NCBI GenBank assembly: GCA_030123625.1
Contig: CP126121.1
Location: 4,504,179-4,568,178 of the forward strand
DNA length: 64,000 nt
DNA from: Nitrospira sp.
Lineage (GTDB): Bacteria; Nitrospirota; Nitrospiria; Nitrospirales; Nitrospiraceae
Direction of reading: 5' to 3'
Made by a program: the position numbers and the translations under genes. A model generated the notes under the pieces. The model saw only the letters and a list, made by a program, of their open reading frames with translations. It made no database searches and had not been told where the DNA came from. Shown here piece after piece: positions 51,665-61,639 of the stretch. Position 1 is the first letter of the stretch. Every line of letters starts with the position of its first letter.

Positions 51665-53134
51665 AAAATCTTACCCAGGGACAGATCGTTGCGTCATTTG
51701 CAAATCTTACCCTCCATCCCTGCATGGTGCGGGGCCGAAGGAGGGTGCGGATGGAGGCAAGTGGCATGGCGCGACGATCGAAGCATGAGTATCTCCAAAT
51801 CATGTGGCAGCGGTATCAGCACGCAGACCGAGCCGAGCGCTCGGCCCTCTTGGATGAAGTGACGCGGATGTGTGGGTATCACCGCAAGTACGCCATTGGG
51901 GTGTTGAATCAGCGGCATCCGCGGCGGCCTTGCCCACGGCGTGTGGCGCACCGGCGGCCGACCTACAGCGCGGAGGTCATCAGCGTGCTGGCCTGGATCT
52001 GGGAACAGGCCGGCTATCTGTGTGCGACGCGGTTGAAGGCGGCGGTGCCGATTTGGCTCCCATGGGTTCGGCAGCGGAGGCCCATGGGTCCAGCGGTGGA
52101 ACGTGCGCTCCGCACCATCAGTGCCCGACAGATCGATCGGCGACTGCAGGCACACAAACTTCGGCTGAAGCGGCGGCTCTATGGGACCACGCGGCCGGGC
52201 ACGTTGCTCAAACACCTGGTGCCCTTGAAGACGGACCATTGGGACGTGACCCAGCCGGGCTTTTTGGAGATTGATCTGGTCTCGCACTCGGGAGCCTCGG
52301 CGGCGGGCGAGTTCCTGCACACGCTAGATGTGGTGGACATTCACACCGGCTGGGTCGAGCGGCAAGCGGTCATGGGCAAAGGTCAGCACGGCATCCTGCA
52401 GGCCCTGACCACGATCGAGCAGCAGCTCCCCTTTGCCCTGCGTGGTCTGGATTCGGACAATGGGAGCGAGTTCATTAACCATCATCTGGTCGCATTCTGC
52501 GAGCGACGCCGCGTTCAGTTCACCCGCTCGCGCCCGTATAAGAAGGATGACAACGCCCATGTGGAGCAAAAGAACTGGACCCACGTGCGCAAGCTCGTGG
52601 GCTGGGATCGGTATGACACGCCGAAGGCGCAGGCCGCGCTCAACGCGCTCTATGCCGAGCTGCGGCTCTTCCAGAATCTCTTTCAGCCCTCGATGAAGCT
52701 GCTGCGCAAAGAACGGCGCGGCTCCCGACTCCTACGCCGCTACGACTGTCCGCAGACGCCCTTGGAACGGGTGCGGGCCTGTGCCGACGTCGATGCCGCC
52801 AAGGTGGCTGTCCTCAAGCGCCTCTTCCGGCGTACTGATCCCTTTGTCCTCGCACAGCGCATTGAGCAACACCTGGAGCGCCTGGCTCTCCTGCGGAGTC
52901 GGGCAGCACACCCCGCTTCCCGGCCAGGCATCCGGTGGCGCGACTGGACCTTCAGTCCACGAGCCTCCCAGGCACGGGCCATGTCCCACAGAAATTCGAC
53001 GCACACAGTTGGCGCAGGAACCACGATCGGCGCGATGGGCAAGTTGGCGGTAGGGGGGAATGTGGGCTCTCCGCCAGTGCCGCAACCTGGTAAGAATTTC
53101 AGATGACGCAACGATCAGGGCTCGGGTAAGAAAT
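51665..53134 (+). mobile_element. Complete IS481/rve-type insertion sequence
   Basis: About 1.47 kb. The left end (51665-51711) and the right end (53089-53134, read on the other strand) are imperfect inverted repeats. Both hold an outer TCTTACCC, an inner ATCGTTGCGTCAT and a second CTTACC box, the two boxes lying about 25 bases apart. One transposase gene (51751-53106) fills the element and its stop codon lies inside the right repeat. No clear target duplication could be identified. The element looks intact. Confidence 0.8.
51751..53106 (+). CDS. Transposase with rve integrase core
   Basis: DDE transposase of 451 residues. The N-terminal part (about 1-150) holds a basic HTH region. The rve core has D175 (FLEIDLVSHSG), D236 (GLDSDNGSEF) and E272 (DDNAHVEQKN), a complete DDE set. 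The C-terminal 150 residues are Arg-rich. The frame opens at 51724, but ATG 51751 lies six bases after GAAGGAGG. It fills an insertion sequence with inverted ends at 51665 and 53134. The gene shows no breaks, unlike the other transposase relics in the window. Confidence 0.9.
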   Translation: MEASGMARRSKHEYLQIMWQRYQHADRAERSALLDEVTRMCGYHRKYAIGVLNQRHPRRPCPRRVAHRRPTYSAEVISVLAWIWEQAGYLCATRLKAAVPIWLPWVRQRRPMGPAVERALRTISARQIDRRLQAHKLRLKRRLYGTTRPGTLLKHLVPLKTDHWDVTQPGFLEIDLVSHSGASAAGEFLHTLDVVDIHTGWVERQAVMGKGQHGILQALTTIEQQLPFALRGLDSDNGSEFINHHLVAFCERRRVQFTRSRPYKKDDNAHVEQKNWTHVRKLVGWDRYDTPKAQAALNALYAELRLFQNLFQPSMKLLRKERRGSRLLRRYDCPQTPLERVRACADVDAAKVAVLKRLFRRTDPFVLAQRIEQHLERLALLRSRAAHPASRPGIRWRDWTFSPRASQARAMSHRNSTHTVGAGTTIGAMGKLAVGGNVGSPPVPQPGKNFR

Positions 53135-53365
53135 TCGGATGGCTTGATAGGCCCCATCGCGCAGAAGAAGTCGGAAAGAATGGATGCCTCCGGCGTTCCC
53201 TTGTCCTGAATTAGCTGTGCTTATTTGTGCTGAAAACTGTCGCAGTATAATACTGCCCCATCTTGTAGGACTTGTGTCGGACAATCCGTGCACCGCCCCG
53301 TATTCCATGGCTCAAGAAAAGAGTGGTACTATAAAGAGCAAATTCTTCTGAAAGGAGCATCTCTC

Positions 53366-53551
53366 ATGAAAGGCTCTCATTCTCATAAGCATCTCCACAG
53401 CCATGCGCACATACATGGATCGGCTCAGACTCACAGCCACGAGCATGAGCACGAACATGCACATATTCACGACCATGGCTCCGACACCGGGCGCCATGAC
53501 CATCAGCATACTGACGAGCATGGTGAACATCAGCACCAACACTCAATGTAG
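53366..53551 (+). CDS. Histidine-rich small protein (22 His in 61 residues)
   Basis: The frame is open from 53288, but ATG 53366 follows GAAAGGAGCATCTCTC and gives 61 residues. It starts MKGSHSHKHLHSHAHIHG and continues with HSHEHEHEHAHIHDHG, then HDHQHTDEHGEHQHQHSM. Histidine alternates with another residue through most of the chain. Such peptides bind nickel, zinc or copper (compare Hpn-type proteins). There is no signal peptide, so it would act in the cytoplasm. It stands alone directly after the insertion sequence. Confidence 0.75.
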   Translation: MKGSHSHKHLHSHAHIHGSAQTHSHEHEHEHAHIHDHGSDTGRHDHQHTDEHGEHQHQHSM

Positions 53552-54383
53552 TCTTCTGTGGGTACGTACACCCGCACCGGTGAGGAGAGATGGCCATGAT
53601 CCGGCTTAGTCGCACGGGCAGCAGTGAGTTGTTCCAATTGCTTACTTCATCCACAGCAGTAGAAATCACATGCACGAACCCATAATTGACGTCATCGATA
53701 GCACGGCGTAGTATTCAACTCATGGTGCGGGTTTCTGTCTTTTTGACAGTTCTGCTTGTCGTTCTTACCTTCAATGCCTGCACTTGTGTTCTGCCGTTGT
53801 AAATAATCGACTGAGATGGACTGCACCTCCGGGATGGAGGAGTCTGTACGCGGGACATGCGATGCATTCCTCGAAATAGGCCCCTCACTTCCGGTTCTCT
53901 TTGAATGCTGACGTCAGCACATTCCATCTTGGATGTGCGTTGCCCAGTCCCCTTCTTCCCAATACGCTTGTTCCGCTTGTTCGAGTGACCGAACCACCAC
54001 GTATCGCCGATATCTCTATCCATCGCTCTATCCATACAACAGTCCTTCGGATTTGATATCCCCCTTCGTCTTATTTTCTACGATAGCCATTAGGCCTCTC
54101 ATCTGTTTCTGTGGTCCAGCCCCCATAAGCGGCGAGGACCATGAGCCACAGAAGGCGGGAAATAGCTATCCCACGCGCTCAGTCAATTCTTAATTCGTCT
54201 TCACGCGCATGCCGGTTCGTTCCTCACAGACTCATTGTTGTTTCCCATGTGGGTAATCCTCCACGCTGTGTCGAATGAATGCAAGACTGCGGATGTGAGC
54301 ACCTTGCGGGATTGGCCCATTCGTCAAAAGCGGTTGTTTTCTTGCCAGGTATACGAGCCTCGGCTAGACTTTTTCACACAGCC
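53552..54383. other. Gene-free stretch with a perfect 14-bp palindrome
   Basis: TGCTGACGTCAGCA (53906-53919) is a perfect palindrome. A 26-codon frame from 53721 has a lipobox-like TFNAC but no ribosome site. I see no supported gene. The palindrome could be an operator but has no partner copy. Confidence 0.4.
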
Positions 54384-55823
54384 ATGGCACGGACGCGCGC
54401 AGCGGAACATCAACGGTCCCGATCGAAAACCGCTCTCATCGAAGAGGTTACGCACCGAATCAACAAGTTCCATGAAGTTTTGGCGACAATCAATGACATC
54501 AGCCAAGAGGGGTTCCCTTACCGTGATGCGGCACAAAGCAAAGCCGAGCTGCAATTTCGTGAATGCCTGCGGCAGACATTCGGGGAGCGTTCTCACGAAT
54601 TCCAAACCTATCGGAACTTCAAGATTCGCACAGCAGACACGGCTGAGGTGACACAGACCCTTACCGTCATTAAAGATCTTATACAAATCTTGGAGGATCG
54701 GAAACTCGAACTTCAAGGACTCAAGCCGCCACCAAAAATCGAGCCATCACATGAGGCAACCATACACAACACCGCACGTCTGATGCTTGTCTCGCCTATG
54801 ACACCGACCACCGTGGCAACGCAGGCAGCTACGCCGATGACGCTCGCCATAGCCATGGCGACGGATGTGGGACCGTCGATTTCTCTTGCCACGCCTGCAC
54901 CCCCAATACAACCCGTTACACCAGCACCTCAAGTCCCGACTCCTATACTGGCTCCAACTCCGACTTCGGCCCCGGCGCCGATACTGTCCCCGCTCCCTAC
55001 AGTAGCTTCGGGGCCTCTTCCGATTCCTATATCTGTGACCTCGGAACCACATCCTCTTTCTATTCTTGCCCCAAGCACAAATCCATCCCCTCCACCGGAA
55101 TCGGCTCCATTCACTCAACCAATGCCATCAACACTCGACGAACCGAAACAGGTTGAGCCGTCACCCGCGGTGGTTCCGGCATCTCCTTCAATACCGGTCC
55201 AACATCACACCAATGCTTCAGCATCTGCATTGAATGCTCAGTCAATGGCGTCCGAGGCGGCTCCTTCTAGTGTGCCGGCTCCGCAAGCCCAGCCGTTAGA
55301 TAGACCGTCCATCGATCTGAGCCGTACTCGGCTGGTTGAATCGGCGCTCGATTCTGCACTTGACCAAGACCCGCTCCATCTCATTCGGAAAGTCTGTCAT
55401 CGATTTCACACCGTAGCTTGCCACCTCCGTCTTCGGAGAGACTACCGTCCGACACTTGAGGTCGACGACGATTACGACCTACAGGACCTTTTATGCGCGT
55501 TGTTGAAGGTCGAGTTCGACGAGGTCGCGACCGATGAATGGACACCCCCCTATTCAGCAGGCGCATCAAGAATGACGTTGCTTGTCAATCGGGACCGAAT
55601 CGCCGTGGTGGCGAAGAAGACCAGATCCGGATTGACTACAAAAGAACTCGCCGATCAGGTCGCGGTGGACTCCGCTTATTATAAGGCTCAAGGCAGATGC
55701 TCTACCTTGTTTTGCTTCATGTACGATCCGGAAGGCCGAATCGGAAGCCCGAAACGGCTGGAAACAACCTTAACAAGCGTCAGCGAGCACTGCCGGATCG
55801 AAGTGCTTGTTGCGCCAAAGTGA
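54384..55823 (+). CDS. Pseudo-nuclease: N-terminal helical domain, Pro-rich linker, inactive PD-(D/E)XK domain
   Basis: Protein of 479 residues in three parts. Residues 1-120 are helical and charged (ALIEEVTHRINKFHEVLATI, SKAELQFRECLRQTFGERS). Residues 120-310 are a Pro/Ala/Thr/Ser-rich linker. Residues 315-479 match the DpnII/MboI-like restriction endonuclease fold: LEVDDDYDLQDLLCALLKVE, then TPPYSAGASRM, CSTLFCFMYDPEGRI and RIEVLVAP. In active relatives a D and an E(V)K flank this core. Here D is T398 and E is V409 (AVVAKKTR), while the Lys is kept. ATG 54384 was chosen over 54279, which has no motif upstream. Confidence 0.75.
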   Translation: MARTRAAEHQRSRSKTALIEEVTHRINKFHEVLATINDISQEGFPYRDAAQSKAELQFRECLRQTFGERSHEFQTYRNFKIRTADTAEVTQTLTVIKDLIQILEDRKLELQGLKPPPKIEPSHEATIHNTARLMLVSPMTPTTVATQAATPMTLAIAMATDVGPSISLATPAPPIQPVTPAPQVPTPILAPTPTSAPAPILSPLPTVASGPLPIPISVTSEPHPLSILAPSTNPSPPPESAPFTQPMPSTLDEPKQVEPSPAVVPASPSIPVQHHTNASASALNAQSMASEAAPSSVPAPQAQPLDRPSIDLSRTRLVESALDSALDQDPLHLIRKVCHRFHTVACHLRLRRDYRPTLEVDDDYDLQDLLCALLKVEFDEVATDEWTPPYSAGASRMTLLVNRDRIAVVAKKTRSGLTTKELADQVAVDSAYYKAQGRCSTLFCFMYDPEGRIGSPKRLETTLTSVSEHCRIEVLVAPK

Positions 55824-55989
55824 GACCATGGCCAAACCAAATTTAAAAAGGATTCCTTCCATCATGTCGTCATCAAAATCCATGAAGGCCAAGCCGGAGT
55901 TGACAGCGCAAAATGACTTTGCTATAAAGCAGCCCACTTCCGGGGCAATTCCCTATATGATTCATGGCCCTGCTCCGGGAGATCAAGGT

Positions 55990-56244
55990 ATGTCGGACCG
56001 GGCATACGTGCTGATCAATGTTCTCCCTGGGCAAACAGCTGCGGTAGTCAAAGCGCTGGGTGAAATCAAAGAGATAAAAACGATTGATCCCTGTTGGGGC
56101 AAGCCGGACATCATCGCGATAGCAGACATACCGGACCAAGATGCCTTGACCCAACTGGTCTTGAGTCGCATCCATCGCATCGAAGGAGTGACGCAGACCG
56201 ATACTCACCTCGTATACCGTCTGAAGGAGGCCAGAACAAAATGA
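55990..56244 (+). CDS. Stand-alone Lrp/AsnC RAM domain protein
   Basis: Protein of 84 residues that is only the ligand-binding RAM (SAM-like ACT fold) domain: MSDRAYVLINVLPGQTAAVV, then KPDIIAIADIPDQDALTQLV and IHRIEGVTQTDTHLVYRL. No HTH is present. Such proteins act as small-molecule sensors or accessory subunits. The frame is open from 55807, but upstream residues are low complexity and the RAM start at ATG 55990, behind GGGAG, is typical. The next gene overlaps its stop (ATGA). Confidence 0.75.
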   Translation: MSDRAYVLINVLPGQTAAVVKALGEIKEIKTIDPCWGKPDIIAIADIPDQDALTQLVLSRIHRIEGVTQTDTHLVYRLKEARTK

Positions 56245-56726
56245 TCCGAAAGGACTATCTTGTCATCGTCGCCCTCACAGTCTTCACCTTTGGATGTGCC
56301 AGTGTTCAGCGTTCTGTCGAGCCTGATGTCGTCGAGGTAACATTGCCGGCCTCGGCAGACCGGGTGAAAGCGGCGGTGACGAAAGTCCTGGATGATGATG
56401 ACTACGACGTGGAGTGGAAAGACGGATCTCAGCTACAGACAGACTACAGGGATGAACAGCCCAGCATTTGGGATTGGATGTTGAAAGGACGGTTCGGTGT
56501 GGTTAAGAGCCGTGCTGAAGCGTCCGTGACACCAGAAACCGACCAGAGCTCCCGTCTTCGTCTGCAAATATCGTCGGAAGGTAAGCAAACAATGTTCCAA
56601 GGGTGGGGCCCCACCGCACCGCAAGTTCCTCAAAGTGCGGAAAACAAGCTACGCTTGATCAAGAACGAATTGAAAATCGTACAGGACACCTACACAACAC
56701 AGACCTTTTACGGATCGAAGCCTTAG
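56241..56726 (+). CDS. Lipoprotein of unknown function
   Basis: Protein of 161 residues. The signal peptide contains a lipobox TFGC (Cys near residue 19). The mature part has ASADRVKAAVTKVLDDDDYDVEW and a region QTTYRDEQPSIWD-like, then VPQSAENKLRLIKNELKIVQD, without a family I recognise. The start overlaps the RAM gene stop. Its stop TAG shares bases with the stop of the convergent regulator (TTAG at 56723-56726). Confidence 0.65.
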   Translation: MIRKDYLVIVALTVFTFGCASVQRSVEPDVVEVTLPASADRVKAAVTKVLDDDDYDVEWKDGSQLQTDYRDEQPSIWDWMLKGRFGVVKSRAEASVTPETDQSSRLRLQISSEGKQTMFQGWGPTAPQVPQSAENKLRLIKNELKIVQDTYTTQTFYGSKP

Positions 56727-58135
56727 ACGGGTTCTTTTTCCGCTCCTTCAGCCTCTTCTCCAAGATCCAGACCGAAACGCTCCGCCATACGGTAGAGCGT
56801 TCGCCTGTCGATGCCGAGAATTTTTGCGGCCTTGACCTTATTTCCTTTCGTTTCCTTGAGTACGCGAGTCAAATGACGTTTTTCCACTTCTTCTAAGGTC
56901 AAACACACCGCATCGAGCTGATCGGCTTGAGAAAGTCGTGCATCCGCTTCAGTCGTTGCGCTCTGGCGAATCACTTCAGGTAAATCATCCGGCGTCAGCA
57001 GAGGGCCGTGGCTTAATGACACGGCGCGTTCAATCGCATTTTCAAGCTCTCGGACGTTGCCGGGCCATCGATACTGGGTCAAGAGCACCATCGTTTCCGG
57101 CAGGACTCCCCGTACCGCATGGTCCGTACCTGCCGCGCACTTTTGTAAGAAGTGGTGCACCAGCATCGGAATGTCTTCCCGCCGATTGGCTAAGGACGGC
57201 AACGTGATCGGAACGACTTTCAGTCGGTAGAAGAGGTCGTCCCGAAATTTTCCTTCTTTCACCAGCTGTTCAAGATCTCGATTGGTCGCGGCGATGATTC
57301 GAACATCGACTCTCGTAGATGTCGTGCCGCCGACTCGGCGAACTTCCTGGTCCTGCATGACCCGCAACAACTTCACTTGCAATGCTTGTCCTAATTCACC
57401 GATCTCGTCGAGAAACAGCGTCCCTCCGTTGGCTGATTCAAAGAGCCCTACCTTGGTCCCTGCTGCACCGGTGAAGGCTCCTTTCTCATATCCGAACATT
57501 TCAGATTCCAGCAAGGTATCGGGCAACGCACCGCAATTGACCGGGATGAACGGCTTATCTCGGCGGGGGCCATTCGTGTGAATGGCCCGCGCAATAAGCT
57601 CTTTGCCGGTGCCGCTTTCCCCCTGGAGCAGTACCGTGCTCTTGCTTTCCGCTACGCGCGCGACCAATTTGTACACCTCCAACATCGCCGTGCTGCTTCC
57701 GACCAATGGAGACCACTCGTCCTTACTCTTCAACTCTTCTCGGAACCGCGCATTCTCCTGGAGCAATCGGCAGTGATCCAACCCCCTTTTGACTACCAGC
57801 TTGATGTCCTCCTTCTTGAACGGCTTCGCCAGGTAATCGTAAGCGCCTTGCTTAATCGCTTCGATCGCGCCTTCCAGAGAGCCGAACGCGGTGAGCACCA
57901 CCACGGCCGTATTCGGACTCACTCGTTTGAACTCCCGCAAGACCGTCAACCCATCCACCGCCCCCATGCGGATGTCCGTCAACACCAAATCGACTCTTCC
58001 TTGACGCCCACGCGCAATCACCTCTTCTCCGCCGGCAAAGGCCTCGACATGATATCCTTCCTTCCTAAGAGCTTCCGCCAACAACTCACGTGCAACCACA
58101 TCGTCGTCGGCCACCAGAATCGTCGCTGGTTGCAT
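56723..58135 (-). CDS. Sigma-54-dependent response regulator (NtrC family)
   Basis: Activator of 470 residues. Receiver 1-125 with D54 (VLTDIRMGAVDG). AAA+ domain (140-380) with Walker A GESGTGKE (172-179), the sigma-54 loop GAFTGA intact (219-224) and FLDE of Walker B (241-244). The Fis-type HTH at the C-terminus contains NKVKAAKILGIDRRTLYRM. It is translated right after the sensor kinase upstream, whose stop shares the A of its ATG (TAATG). Confidence 0.93.
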   Translation of the reverse strand: MQPATILVADDDVVARELLAEALRKEGYHVEAFAGGEEVIARGRQGRVDLVLTDIRMGAVDGLTVLREFKRVSPNTAVVVLTAFGSLEGAIEAIKQGAYDYLAKPFKKEDIKLVVKRGLDHCRLLQENARFREELKSKDEWSPLVGSSTAMLEVYKLVARVAESKSTVLLQGESGTGKELIARAIHTNGPRRDKPFIPVNCGALPDTLLESEMFGYEKGAFTGAAGTKVGLFESANGGTLFLDEIGELGQALQVKLLRVMQDQEVRRVGGTTSTRVDVRIIAATNRDLEQLVKEGKFRDDLFYRLKVVPITLPSLANRREDIPMLVHHFLQKCAAGTDHAVRGVLPETMVLLTQYRWPGNVRELENAIERAVSLSHGPLLTPDDLPEVIRQSATTEADARLSQADQLDAVCLTLEEVEKRHLTRVLKETKGNKVKAAKILGIDRRTLYRMAERFGLDLGEEAEGAEKEPV

Positions 58136-59307
58136 TACGCCTCCTCCCTCGTATGAATGGGTTCACGTCGCATCGCCGGTAACGTCATCGTCACAACCGT
58201 GCCACACCCGATCCCACTCGTCATCGCGAGGCTACCCCCATGAGCCACCACCGATTCGCGGCTCAAGAATAGCCCCAATCCCGTTCCCTTGCCAACCGCC
58301 TTCGTCGTAAAAAATGGCTCAAAAGCTTTCTGTACGTCTTCCTCCGGCATACCGCATCCTGTATCTTGCACCTCGATCGTCACCACTGACGACGACATAC
58401 CGTCTGCAATCAGCCGACCGCGGTCGAGTTCGGCTGACGACGCCTCGCGAGTTCCTGCCATGACGGTCACTTTCCCCTGTGCAGGTGTTGCGGCAAGCGC
58501 ATTGGTCAGAACGTTTACCAATGCCTGATGAATTTTTTCCTTGTCCGCCCAAACCAGAGGAAGGTCCTTTGGAACGTCGACAATCAGAGTGATCCCTTTC
58601 TCATGAAAAGCCGGTTCCATCAGAACCGCAGAGGGGCTGACCACTTCCTCGACGGGAAGCCATTGCGGCTCAGGCTGCCGTGGCCGGGTAGAAGACAGCA
58701 AATCCTGAATGATTCGAACCACCCGCGTGAGCTGATCATCGATGACGGCCACCCGCTTTCTCATCTCCGGCGTGGCACCAGGCTCCTCGGCCAGAGCCTG
58801 GACATGCCACGCAATCGAGTGAAGCGGCGTGCCCACCTCATGCGCCACAGACGCCACCAACTGACCCACCGCAGCCAACCGTTCCGACCGATTCAGCTGG
58901 TCTTTCGCCTGTACGAGTTGCGTGTTGGCTTTGAGCAGACTTTCGGTTTCTCGGGCGAGCGCCGCCCTCGCCGCCTCCTCTCTCGCCTTCCTCTCTTCCC
59001 AACTCACACCCAGGTAAGCCACCAACAGCAAGACGCCGACGACCACGCTCCGATTAATGACCGCCGATTGAAACCTGCCCGGCTTCGTCGGTTGGAGTAG
59101 ACCAGAATAGGTCGCAACGACACAGGCCAGCACCGTCACCACCATGATGGTTCTATTCCGGAGGGTGGTCACCAATAAGATAGGCAACACGTATCCATAC
59201 GCCCCGACGACATTGACCGGAGCAAATTCTTCAATGATCAGGATGATGAGAAAACAGGCAGCCGCGATGGCCAGCATGAGACGGTCACGATGCGTCATGG
59301 CAGTCAT
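58135..59307 (-). CDS. Membrane sensor histidine kinase
   Basis: Sensor of 390 residues. Three or four hydrophobic segments (about 10-28, 38-48, 53-70, 85-102) anchor it with hardly any periplasmic loop, so it probably senses within the membrane. The dimerisation domain has [17 protein letters not shown] (H156). The ATPase domain has [23 protein letters not shown] and [16 protein letters not shown] 59307 lies seven bases after GGAG. Longer frames start at 59355 (ATG) and 59394 (TTG). It is coupled to the regulator downstream and follows malQ. Confidence 0.85.
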
Positions 59308-59386
59308 CGACTCGCTCCGCTTGGCCGAGGATGACGACTTCTGAATTGAGAACATCGGTAACGAGTGGGTTCCTTCACAGAAGTAC

Positions 59387-61639
59387 TTACACAAGAGGGC
59401 GGGTCATACGCAACAGAGACGCGAGTCGCTCAAATCGCGAGTCTTGGACCAAATCCTCCACTGTCAGACTCAATTTCCGGCACCAATTCGGGTGCTGGTC
59501 CACCGTTCCCGGTAGATTAGTCTGGCATCGGGTGCCAATGATATCTTCAACATTGGCCAAGACGATGGACGCTGGTGTCCGGGCCAGATATTGATGAATA
59601 CCTTCCATCAACTCAGTCGTCATCCTCGGCACGTAGGTCGGATCATCGGATACCCCCATGGGCAGGAGTCCTTCCGACTTCAATGCAGCGAGGATTCCCT
59701 TCTTTTCTCGATGCCGCTCTTCCCACATCGCATTGCGAGCCTCCTCCGAAGCGAAGAACCCCAGCTCGGATCGAGTTTCGATATCCACACCTTCCCAATA
59801 TCCGCTCAATGGCGGAAGATCGTGGGTTGTGACGACGGCGAGAGATTGAGCGGGATAGTGAGCCGGAGGCTTCCAACTTCCCCGGTACTCTCGCTCAAAA
59901 TAGAAGACTCGATACGAGAAGACCCCTGCTGTTCCGAGCCGGTCGCGCACCCAATCCGGAACGGTTCCTAGATCTTCGCCGATCACCAGTGCCTTCGCCC
60001 GCATGCTTTCCAGCGCCAAAATCGCCAGCAGTTCATCATCCCGGTAATGCACGTACGTCCCCCTCGCGGGTGGGAGACCACGGGGAATCCAAAACAGTCG
60101 AAAGAGCGCCATGACATGATCGATCCGTATCGCCCCTCCATAGCGGAGATTATTGCGTAGCAATTCGATGAAATATCGATACCCGCTTGCGCGCAGACGC
60201 AATGGATCGAGTGGAGAAATTCCCCAATTCTGTCCCTCAGGACCAAGTGCATCGGGAGGCGCACCGCAATCAGCCTTGAACGCCAACACCTCTTGATTCA
60301 ACCATCCATCGGCGCCATAGCGTTCGCTGCCCAGTGCAAAGTCATGGTACAAACCGATCGGCATACCCGCCTCATGCGTCTTCTTCACCGCCCCGAGCAG
60401 CTGTTCCGCGACCAGCCATTGCAGATATTGAAAGAATCGTACACGCGGCATCTGCCGACGCCGAAACTCTTCCACGGCTTCCGAAGTGGGAGATCGGTAG
60501 GGTTCCGGCCAGTCTTCCCAGATCGTCGACGTCGAGGAGACGGACTGCCGCTCTTCCTCCAGAGCTTGAAATACCGCATAGCGCGCCAGGGACTCTCCTT
60601 CCCGCTCTGTGAAGTGAAGAAAGCTTTTCCCCCGATCAGTCTTTGGCTTCAACTCCGGTTCGAGGCCTTCGAAGTTCTCCCGCAAAAATACCCGATAGCA
60701 AAGCTCGAGGATCTCGCGTTTCGTTGACTTTACCGCGTCGTAATCCACAAACTCGGATCGTCGAGCCGCTTCGATCCTTGCACGAAATAGTGGATCGGCA
60801 AGCCGGCTTTGCACATCCGGACCCATCCAACACTCTGGAACCTGGGTGACGTCAATATACAAGTCGTTCAAAAACAGACGGCTGGTGGGCGCATAGGGAC
60901 TAATATGATAAGGCTTGGTATTTTTGAGAGCGTGGAGCGGGTTTAGCCCGATCACAGCAGCGCCCAGACGGTTTCCTGTCCATTCGATGACGGCGCCCAG
61001 ATCTCGAAAATCGCCGATGCCCCAATTATGATGGCTCCGCAATGAATAGAGCTGTAAGGCTACGCCCCACCATCGAACACCCTGCTGAAGTTCATCAGGA
61101 ATGTAACAGCGCTCCGGCGCGACAATGAGGCGGAACGTGGATTTCGTATCCATGCTGCCTCCCTTTGCGTTGGCTTTGGCTGTGTAATAGCCAAGCGGCA
61201 GGTCTTGTGGAAACATCATGGCGACACGAATAAACCTGCGTCCCTGAATCGTGCGAGTCTCTTCGACTCTCAGACCCGGCCCATCCGTTCGCTCACACTG
61301 CTTTTCTCCGTTCTCCGCATAGAGTGACCACTTAACATAAAGACCCGAATCCTCCGATCTCTCACATGGCCCATACCACGACCAGGTACCTACGTCTCGT
61401 CCCAACCGCAGTACATGGACAGGTTCACAGCCTTGCAACCACCAACGATTATCCCACCCCTCTAGCTCCGCAATGAGTTCCTCACGATTCGCAACCCGCA
61501 GATTCATGGCGGCCAGAATGGCCCGTCGTGTCTCGTCTGTCGTCACATGGCACATTCCGGCGATGTCATAGTAGTCGGCAGCAATCCCCGTCCGATCGGC
61601 CAACATACGCAAGAGATCACTTTCAGATCGATCGTACAT
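59387..61639 (-). CDS. malQ: 4-alpha-glucanotransferase MalQ (GH77)
   Basis: Enzyme of 750 residues that moves alpha-1,4-glucan segments between chains and releases glucose. Catalytic GH77 features are visible: the nucleophile Asp in GGAIRIDHVMALFRLFWIPRG (IRIDHVM), the acid/base Glu in LVIGEDLGTVP, and TTHDLPPLSGYW. The extra N-terminal part (about 1-190) is the beta-rich domain found in long MalQ forms. The frame opens at TTG 61669; ATG 61639 begins the usual MYDRSESDLL. The gene is followed within 80 bases by the sensor kinase and regulator, an unusual link between glucan handling and a two-component system. Confidence 0.9.
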   Translation of the reverse strand: MYDRSESDLLRMLADRTGIAADYYDIAGMCHVTTDETRRAILAAMNLRVANREELIAELEGWDNRWWLQGCEPVHVLRLGRDVGTWSWYGPCERSEDSGLYVKWSLYAENGEKQCERTDGPGLRVEETRTIQGRRFIRVAMMFPQDLPLGYYTAKANAKGGSMDTKSTFRLIVAPERCYIPDELQQGVRWWGVALQLYSLRSHHNWGIGDFRDLGAVIEWTGNRLGAAVIGLNPLHALKNTKPYHISPYAPTSRLFLNDLYIDVTQVPECWMGPDVQSRLADPLFRARIEAARRSEFVDYDAVKSTKREILELCYRVFLRENFEGLEPELKPKTDRGKSFLHFTEREGESLARYAVFQALEEERQSVSSTSTIWEDWPEPYRSPTSEAVEEFRRRQMPRVRFFQYLQWLVAEQLLGAVKKTHEAGMPIGLYHDFALGSERYGADGWLNQEVLAFKADCGAPPDALGPEGQNWGISPLDPLRLRASGYRYFIELLRNNLRYGGAIRIDHVMALFRLFWIPRGLPPARGTYVHYRDDELLAILALESMRAKALVIGEDLGTVPDWVRDRLGTAGVFSYRVFYFEREYRGSWKPPAHYPAQSLAVVTTHDLPPLSGYWEGVDIETRSELGFFASEEARNAMWEERHREKKGILAALKSEGLLPMGVSDDPTYVPRMTTELMEGIHQYLARTPASIVLANVEDIIGTRCQTNLPGTVDQHPNWCRKLSLTVEDLVQDSRFERLASLLRMTRPLV

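Follow-up and report, generated by a model that had tools for sequence, protein, structure and literature searches.

A predicted pseudonuclease of the DpnII/MboI family at the head of a RAM–lipoprotein operon in Nitrospira

The window analysed here is a stretch of 64,000 nucleotides from a Nitrospira genome of 4.69 Mb assembled in one contig, and it carries the gene of a three-part protein which ends in a DpnII/MboI-like nuclease domain lacking both catalytic acids. Loss of catalysis is strongly predicted from the sequence of the Nitrospira protein and, since evolution preserves the rest of the protein tightly, it probably does a new, non-cutting job. The reading that we favour, to which we give about an even chance, is that of a non-cutting binding module domesticated from a mobile defence-type nuclease. 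A literature search of partial coverage retrieved no description of the family, a conserved protein of undescribed role in ecologically important nitrifiers. The features discussed below are the following.

54342..54370, forward strand: predicted sigma-70-like promoter, TTGCCA-17 bp-TAGACT (sequence, recurrence in the genus)
54384..55823, forward strand: pseudonuclease gene, 479 residues, with a helical N-terminal domain, a Pro/Ala/Ser/Thr linker and an inactive DpnII/MboI-like domain
54384..54737, forward strand: all-helical N-terminal domain, residues 1–118 (alignments, four helices in the model, phylum-wide search)
54738..55361, forward strand: Pro-rich, low-charge, fast-evolving linker, residues 119–326 (composition, dN/dS)
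55362..55820, forward strand: inactive DpnII/MboI-like PD-(D/E)XK domain, residues 327–479 (PF18742 match, model)
55575..55577, forward strand: ACG codon of T398, at the position of the metal-binding Asp (alignment to active copies)
55608..55616, forward strand: codons of V409-A410-K411, at the position of the E-x-K motif, Glu being lost (GTG, 55608–55610) and Lys kept (AAG, 55614–55616)
55828..56244, forward strand: stand-alone RAM (Lrp/AsnC ligand-binding) protein, 138 residues, without HTH (PF01037 at 61–130)
56241..56726, forward strand: lipoprotein-like gene with a lipobox-like FGC, its first 4 bases shared with the RAM gene
56723..58135, reverse strand: NtrC-type sigma-54 response regulator (convergent neighbour, synteny)
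58135..59394, reverse strand: histidine kinase (convergent neighbour, synteny)

The reading frame is open from the ATG at 54384 to the stop codon at 55821–55823. The upstream ATG at 54279 was discarded as a start, because the promoter-like element is conserved upstream of the genus orthologues and their conservation begins at MARxRA. This element recurs upstream of nearly all of the 58 genus orthologues displayed, and its TAGACT ends 13 nt before the start codon, leaving a very short leader with no clear Shine-Dalgarno sequence; the region 54342–54383 is a putative strong, near-leaderless promoter.

The layout of the original prediction, a helical domain followed by a Pro-rich linker and a nuclease-like domain, is retained, while the lengths had to be corrected to about 118, 208 and 153 residues (327–479 for the last). 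The N-terminal domain carries the invariant pattern GFPY..D..K.E...R......FG..S.E and was modelled as four helices (pLDDT 76.6), for which comparison with the PDB, by profile and by fold, returned generic helical bundles only. The linker, rich in Pro (21%), Ala (14%), Ser (13%) and Thr (10%), is present as a long spacer in all members of the genus. The assignment of the C-terminal domain to the DpnII/MboI-like family, initially proposed from motif patterns, is borne out by a Pfam PF18742 match over residues 333–479 (E=7.2e-49, 165.6 bits against a cut-off of 27). NCBIfam gave no meaningful match. An AlphaFold2 model of this domain, built from an alignment of 49 relatives, has a pLDDT of 90.7 and shows the helix-strand-strand-strand-helix-strand core expected of the PD-(D/E)XK fold, with residue 398 (77 of the domain) in the second strand and residues 409 and 411 (88 and 90) in the third. 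Among the best matches to this fold in the PDB are two restriction enzymes, BspD6I and PaqCI, and the Can2 nuclease, none of them strong (E>0.01). A single-sequence search of the PDB with the domain found no match, and the profile search gave sub-threshold matches only, the best being EcbAgaN (23wq, E=0.4).

With regard to the active site, the codons read directly confirm the lost Asp (T398), the lost Glu (V409) and the kept Lys (K411), and the alignment to genuine copies has no gaps at these columns (RVDLV..IVEVK in L073, RMDFL..VVELK in L200). Among 60 orthologues of the genus, position 398 is occupied by Thr (43), Ala (11) or Met (6) and never by Asp, and position 409 by Val (57), Ile (2) or Ala (1) and never by Glu, so that both acids are absent in all 60; K411 is kept in 58 and K412 in 60. 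In further loci, from other Nitrospiraceae genera, residue 398 is Thr, Ser, Met, Arg, Ala or Val, and residue 409 is Val, Ile or Leu. The Asp/Glu pair occurs in none of 80 loci from GTDB genomes (79 readable at both positions) and in none of about 100 loci family-wide, most of which have lost both acids. Five deep branches keep a single one, Asp in L165, L181, L183 and L204 and Glu in L182. The window's protein is therefore no isolated, frameshifted copy, as the tabulation of homologues at these positions makes clear. In a control set of PF18742 copies from outside the pseudonuclease lineage, seven from Nitrospirota (L073, L074, L200, L201, L202, L203, L206) and three from plasmids (L215, L216, L217), Asp, Glu and Lys are intact in 10 out of 10. 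In EcbAgaN, the nearest biochemically studied relative, the D298A and E309A-K311A mutants each abolish DNA cleavage (PMC10620215). Acids displaced within the active site were also considered: the model puts residues 398 and 409 on the two canonical strands, and comparison with the closest active copies shows just three conserved acids peculiar to the dead clade (353, 421 and 473), none at a catalytic position.

The full protein was found in single copy in 62 of the 117 genomes searched, all of one genus, that of the window, in which it is nearly universal and in fixed synteny. A search with the N-terminal domain through 296 genomes of the phylum gave matches almost only in Nitrospiraceae; those from outside the family (G086 and G321, E~1e-3) proved on reading to be unrelated proteins. 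The genus g18 of the same family lacks the pseudonuclease. Two contigs titled Phycisphaerales and Nitrosospira (L128 and L112) carry Nitrospira-type copies in expected tree positions and probably come from mislabelled or misbinned genomes. Pairwise Nei-Gojobori dN/dS ranges from 0.03 to 0.22 in the dead domain, from 0 to 0.53 (mostly <0.25) in the N-terminal domain, and from about 0.35 to 1.2 in the linker. The dead domain is under strong purifying selection, and the loss of catalytic residues in a fold so preserved is as expected of a pseudoenzyme.

The two genes that follow are, as first proposed, a RAM-domain sensor (PF01037, E=1.6e-10) and a lipoprotein-like gene. The RAM gene adjoins the pseudonuclease across the family, and the RAM part of its product alone matches Pfam, unlike a complete Lrp/AsnC regulator, which combines HTH and RAM. 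The lipoprotein-like gene has no match in Pfam or PHROG. In 42 out of 44 mapped loci of the genus, the order is pseudonuclease, RAM, lipoprotein-like, convergent response regulator, histidine kinase and malQ, exceptions in the genus being mostly contig ends, and the two-component pair holds a conserved convergent position. The same arrangement extends through Nitrospiraceae, although the lipoprotein was undetected in some members. A cognate methyltransferase, expected beside a type II restriction enzyme, is not among these conserved neighbours. The upstream side of the operon varies between genomes; in the window it includes a 460-residue transposase/integrase-like ORF with an rve core (51724–53106) and a short His-rich ORF of about 87 residues with many HxH runs, possibly a metal-binding peptide (53288–53551).

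Strict co-inheritance of the RAM gene and the pseudonuclease was rejected. In six genomes the RAM and lipoprotein genes occupy this locus but the pseudonuclease is missing, and one genome whose copy is half-dead has no RAM orthologue. A strict two-part machine is therefore unlikely, and the pseudonuclease seems to have joined a RAM–lipoprotein module that predates it. The reduced genome G046 (2.0 Mb) has lost both the pseudonuclease and RAM genes and kept a lipoprotein remnant, so the pseudonuclease is not essential everywhere. This remnant is disrupted (L090:3084-3587) and adjoins a peroxiredoxin gene.

The idea of a repurposed conflict protein, already present in the original prediction, gains support from mobile, intact relatives. 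By sequence, the gene heading the operon is related to mobile genes coding for a helical domain and a DpnII/MboI nuclease, which are found intact on plasmids and sporadically in Nitrospiraceae (L200 and L201). The proteins of these nearest intact relatives have two domains and a length of about 264 residues (range about 246–265); the genes are grouped as phrog_29450 in PHROGs and occur in 207 plasmid records, most of them of conjugative plasmids. An ORF that by eye resembles an integrase gene lies near L201. On an IncX4 plasmid, an intact copy (L216:2881-3678) adjoins an Abi family gene and an integrase. Many plasmid copies, including those of Enterobacteriaceae plasmids, are annotated 'malate dehydrogenase'. 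The operon copies have lost one or both catalytic acids, and most carry the long Pro-rich linker absent from the intact genes. A tree with distant active copies as its root unites intact, half-dead and fully dead forms in one family; the fully dead ones make up a clade of 36 rows (support 96/86), and the intact L200 and L201 fall among half-dead deep branches. Parsimony requires at least two changes for Asp and at least three for Glu, and the grouping of dead and half-dead forms as one clade apart from the active ones has a p-AU of 0.147. More than one independent loss of the acids is likely on this evidence, and the acids were probably lost in more than one lineage.

The ancestry of the helical domain is traced through a bridge sequence. 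In the genus g18, L180:5577-6563 (reverse strand) codes for the same type of N-terminal domain fused to Ymh-HEPN (PF09509). By hhalign this domain is homologous to that of the pseudonuclease (E=4e-17), and its resemblance to the domain of the active copies has an E-value of 1.3e-4 and a probability of 53%, whereas direct profile comparison of the pseudonuclease and active domains is not significant, so that L180 is the only link. The N-terminal domain of an active copy also matches the PADLOC candidate PDC-S35. Conflict systems are known to exchange such N-terminal domains between HEPN and REase effectors (PMC3710099); the present domain, found with both REase and Ymh-HEPN, fits the pattern of sensor domains of the AbiJ-NTD/DpnII-MboI-NTD type and has no Pfam match of its own.

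We propose that a mobile gene for a helical domain and a DpnII/MboI nuclease was captured at the head of the RAM–lipoprotein operon in Nitrospiraceae. Its product would no longer cut. The cleft, with Thr and Val in place of the acids, would probably still bind nucleic acid, because its lysines persist and catalytic-acid mutants of restriction enzymes can keep binding; the catalytically deficient BamHI D94N/E113K still binds its site (PMC8845596). The helical domain, tethered by the flexible arm, may bind a partner. The RAM protein made from the same operon, its only link to the pseudonuclease, may act as small-molecule sensor and oligomeriser modulating the assembly, since amino-acid binding and the ability to enter mixed oligomers with full-length Lrp proteins are documented for stand-alone RAM proteins (PMC2995911). 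The whole could serve the older RAM–lipoprotein module as a regulator, roadblock or scaffold rather than as a defence nuclease. Weighing against a binding module are the net charge of the dead domain (about -1 to -2), the persistence of the RAM–lipoprotein pair alone and the loss of the gene in G046. A more specific version, a split Lrp-like regulator in which the dead REase domain would bind DNA and the co-encoded stand-alone RAM protein would sense the ligand, is unlikely, at roughly one chance in eight. If true, a nuclease captured from defence would now be a factor that binds DNA without cutting it and responds to nutrients, in a family that includes nitrite-oxidising and comammox Nitrospira.

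The main rival to the binding module, appreciably less probable, is a protein-only scaffold, in which the REase fold would be off nucleic acid and the helical and dead domains would bind two partners through the Pro-rich spacer, for instance to hold together an assembly, in the cytoplasm or at the envelope, of which the RAM protein and the lipoprotein are part. The spacer kept throughout the genus, the lipoprotein gene in the operon of most members and the slightly acidic dead domain agree with it. Conserved Lys/Arg residues and the retention of the whole DpnII/MboI framework argue the other way, and reading of the sequence reveals neither a signal peptide nor a membrane segment, so that contact with a periplasmic lipoprotein is not obvious.

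A defence decoy or guard, which would mimic the mobile helical-REase effectors, bind to their target or helical domain and so serve as bait or antitoxin-like inhibitor against copies carried by plasmids and phages, is doubtful, somewhat more so than the split regulator. Conjugative plasmids and PHROGs do include intact relatives, which are also sporadic in the same family, and the helical domain is shared through L180. Fast evolution would nonetheless be expected at contact surfaces, yet both domains are under strong purifying selection; direct similarity of the N-terminal domains is weak, and the gene lies beside metabolic and regulatory genes, not in a defence island.

Still less credible is an enzyme that continues to cut, through a rearranged active site with a migrated acid, as in Cfr10I/NgoMIV, or with another metal or substrate. 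E421 and D424 (K+13) stand on the helix after K411, position 421 being acidic in 100% of the dead clade where the closest active copies have Ala, and position 363 in helix 1 remains acidic (D/E). The Cfr10I/NgoMIV swap, however, retains the first Asp, and a migrated-acid enzyme would here still be without it, that position being Thr, Ala, Met, Ser, Arg or Val in the large clade, which keeps the probability low. D424 is also present in active copies and thus not new, and the residues that replace the acids at 398 and 409 vary instead of settling on one new motif. Finally, a decaying pseudogene without function, for which the lost acids and the absence of the gene from some genomes might speak, is refuted by dN/dS far below 1 in both domains, and is at odds with a frame open in nearly all genomes, invariant residues and a conserved promoter-like element.

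Across the family, intact mobile nucleases, half-dead copies and fully dead ones fixed in a chromosomal operon form a series and, living intermediates being present, the transition from defence nuclease to housekeeping protein is testable. It is also a warning, as defence-finding pipelines could count the pseudonuclease as a nuclease effector in Nitrospira genomes.

Compared with known systems, the protein resembles the type II REase-like family PF18742 in profile match, framework motifs and predicted fold, but differs from its active members by the loss of Asp and Glu in its lineage and by neighbours that do not conserve a methyltransferase. The solo helical-REase genes (phrog_29450, plasmid genes, L200/L201) have a helical N-terminal domain and the same REase domain, with 46% identity over the latter; unlike the pseudonuclease, they keep D..ExK, lack the Pro-rich linker, and are mobile and sporadic. 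The long-B Argonaute-associated DNase bAgaN (Aga_Helical-REase; EcbAgaN) likewise has two domains, an unstructured link and a C-terminal PD-(D/E)XK domain of the same family, but its D-EVK is intact, its N-terminal domain is another one, and it works with Argonaute. Only residues 303–476 align with the Aga_Helical-REase (BPAN) profile, at positions 197–373 of 378, and the PADLOC label 'Aga_Helical-REase' is misleading here because the window's genome has no match to Piwi (PF02171) or Argonaute. A genuine pair exists in a relative of that genome (G003, L073:1706-5247), with intact D..EVK, PADLOC E-values of 1e-257 (pAgo_II) and 1.7e-106 (Aga), and restriction-system-like genes beside it. The Ymh-HEPN protein L180 (TIGR02391, PF09509) shares the homologous helical domain, but its effector is a predicted HEPN RNase (PMC3710099) instead of an REase. 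With Lrp/AsnC regulators, the operon has in common the RAM sensing half, coded by its second gene; as its product lacks an HTH, any part that binds DNA would need another source, which may be the dead REase. The best reading of these sequences is a domesticated pseudonuclease of the DpnII/MboI family, distinct from both restriction enzymes and Argonaute effectors.
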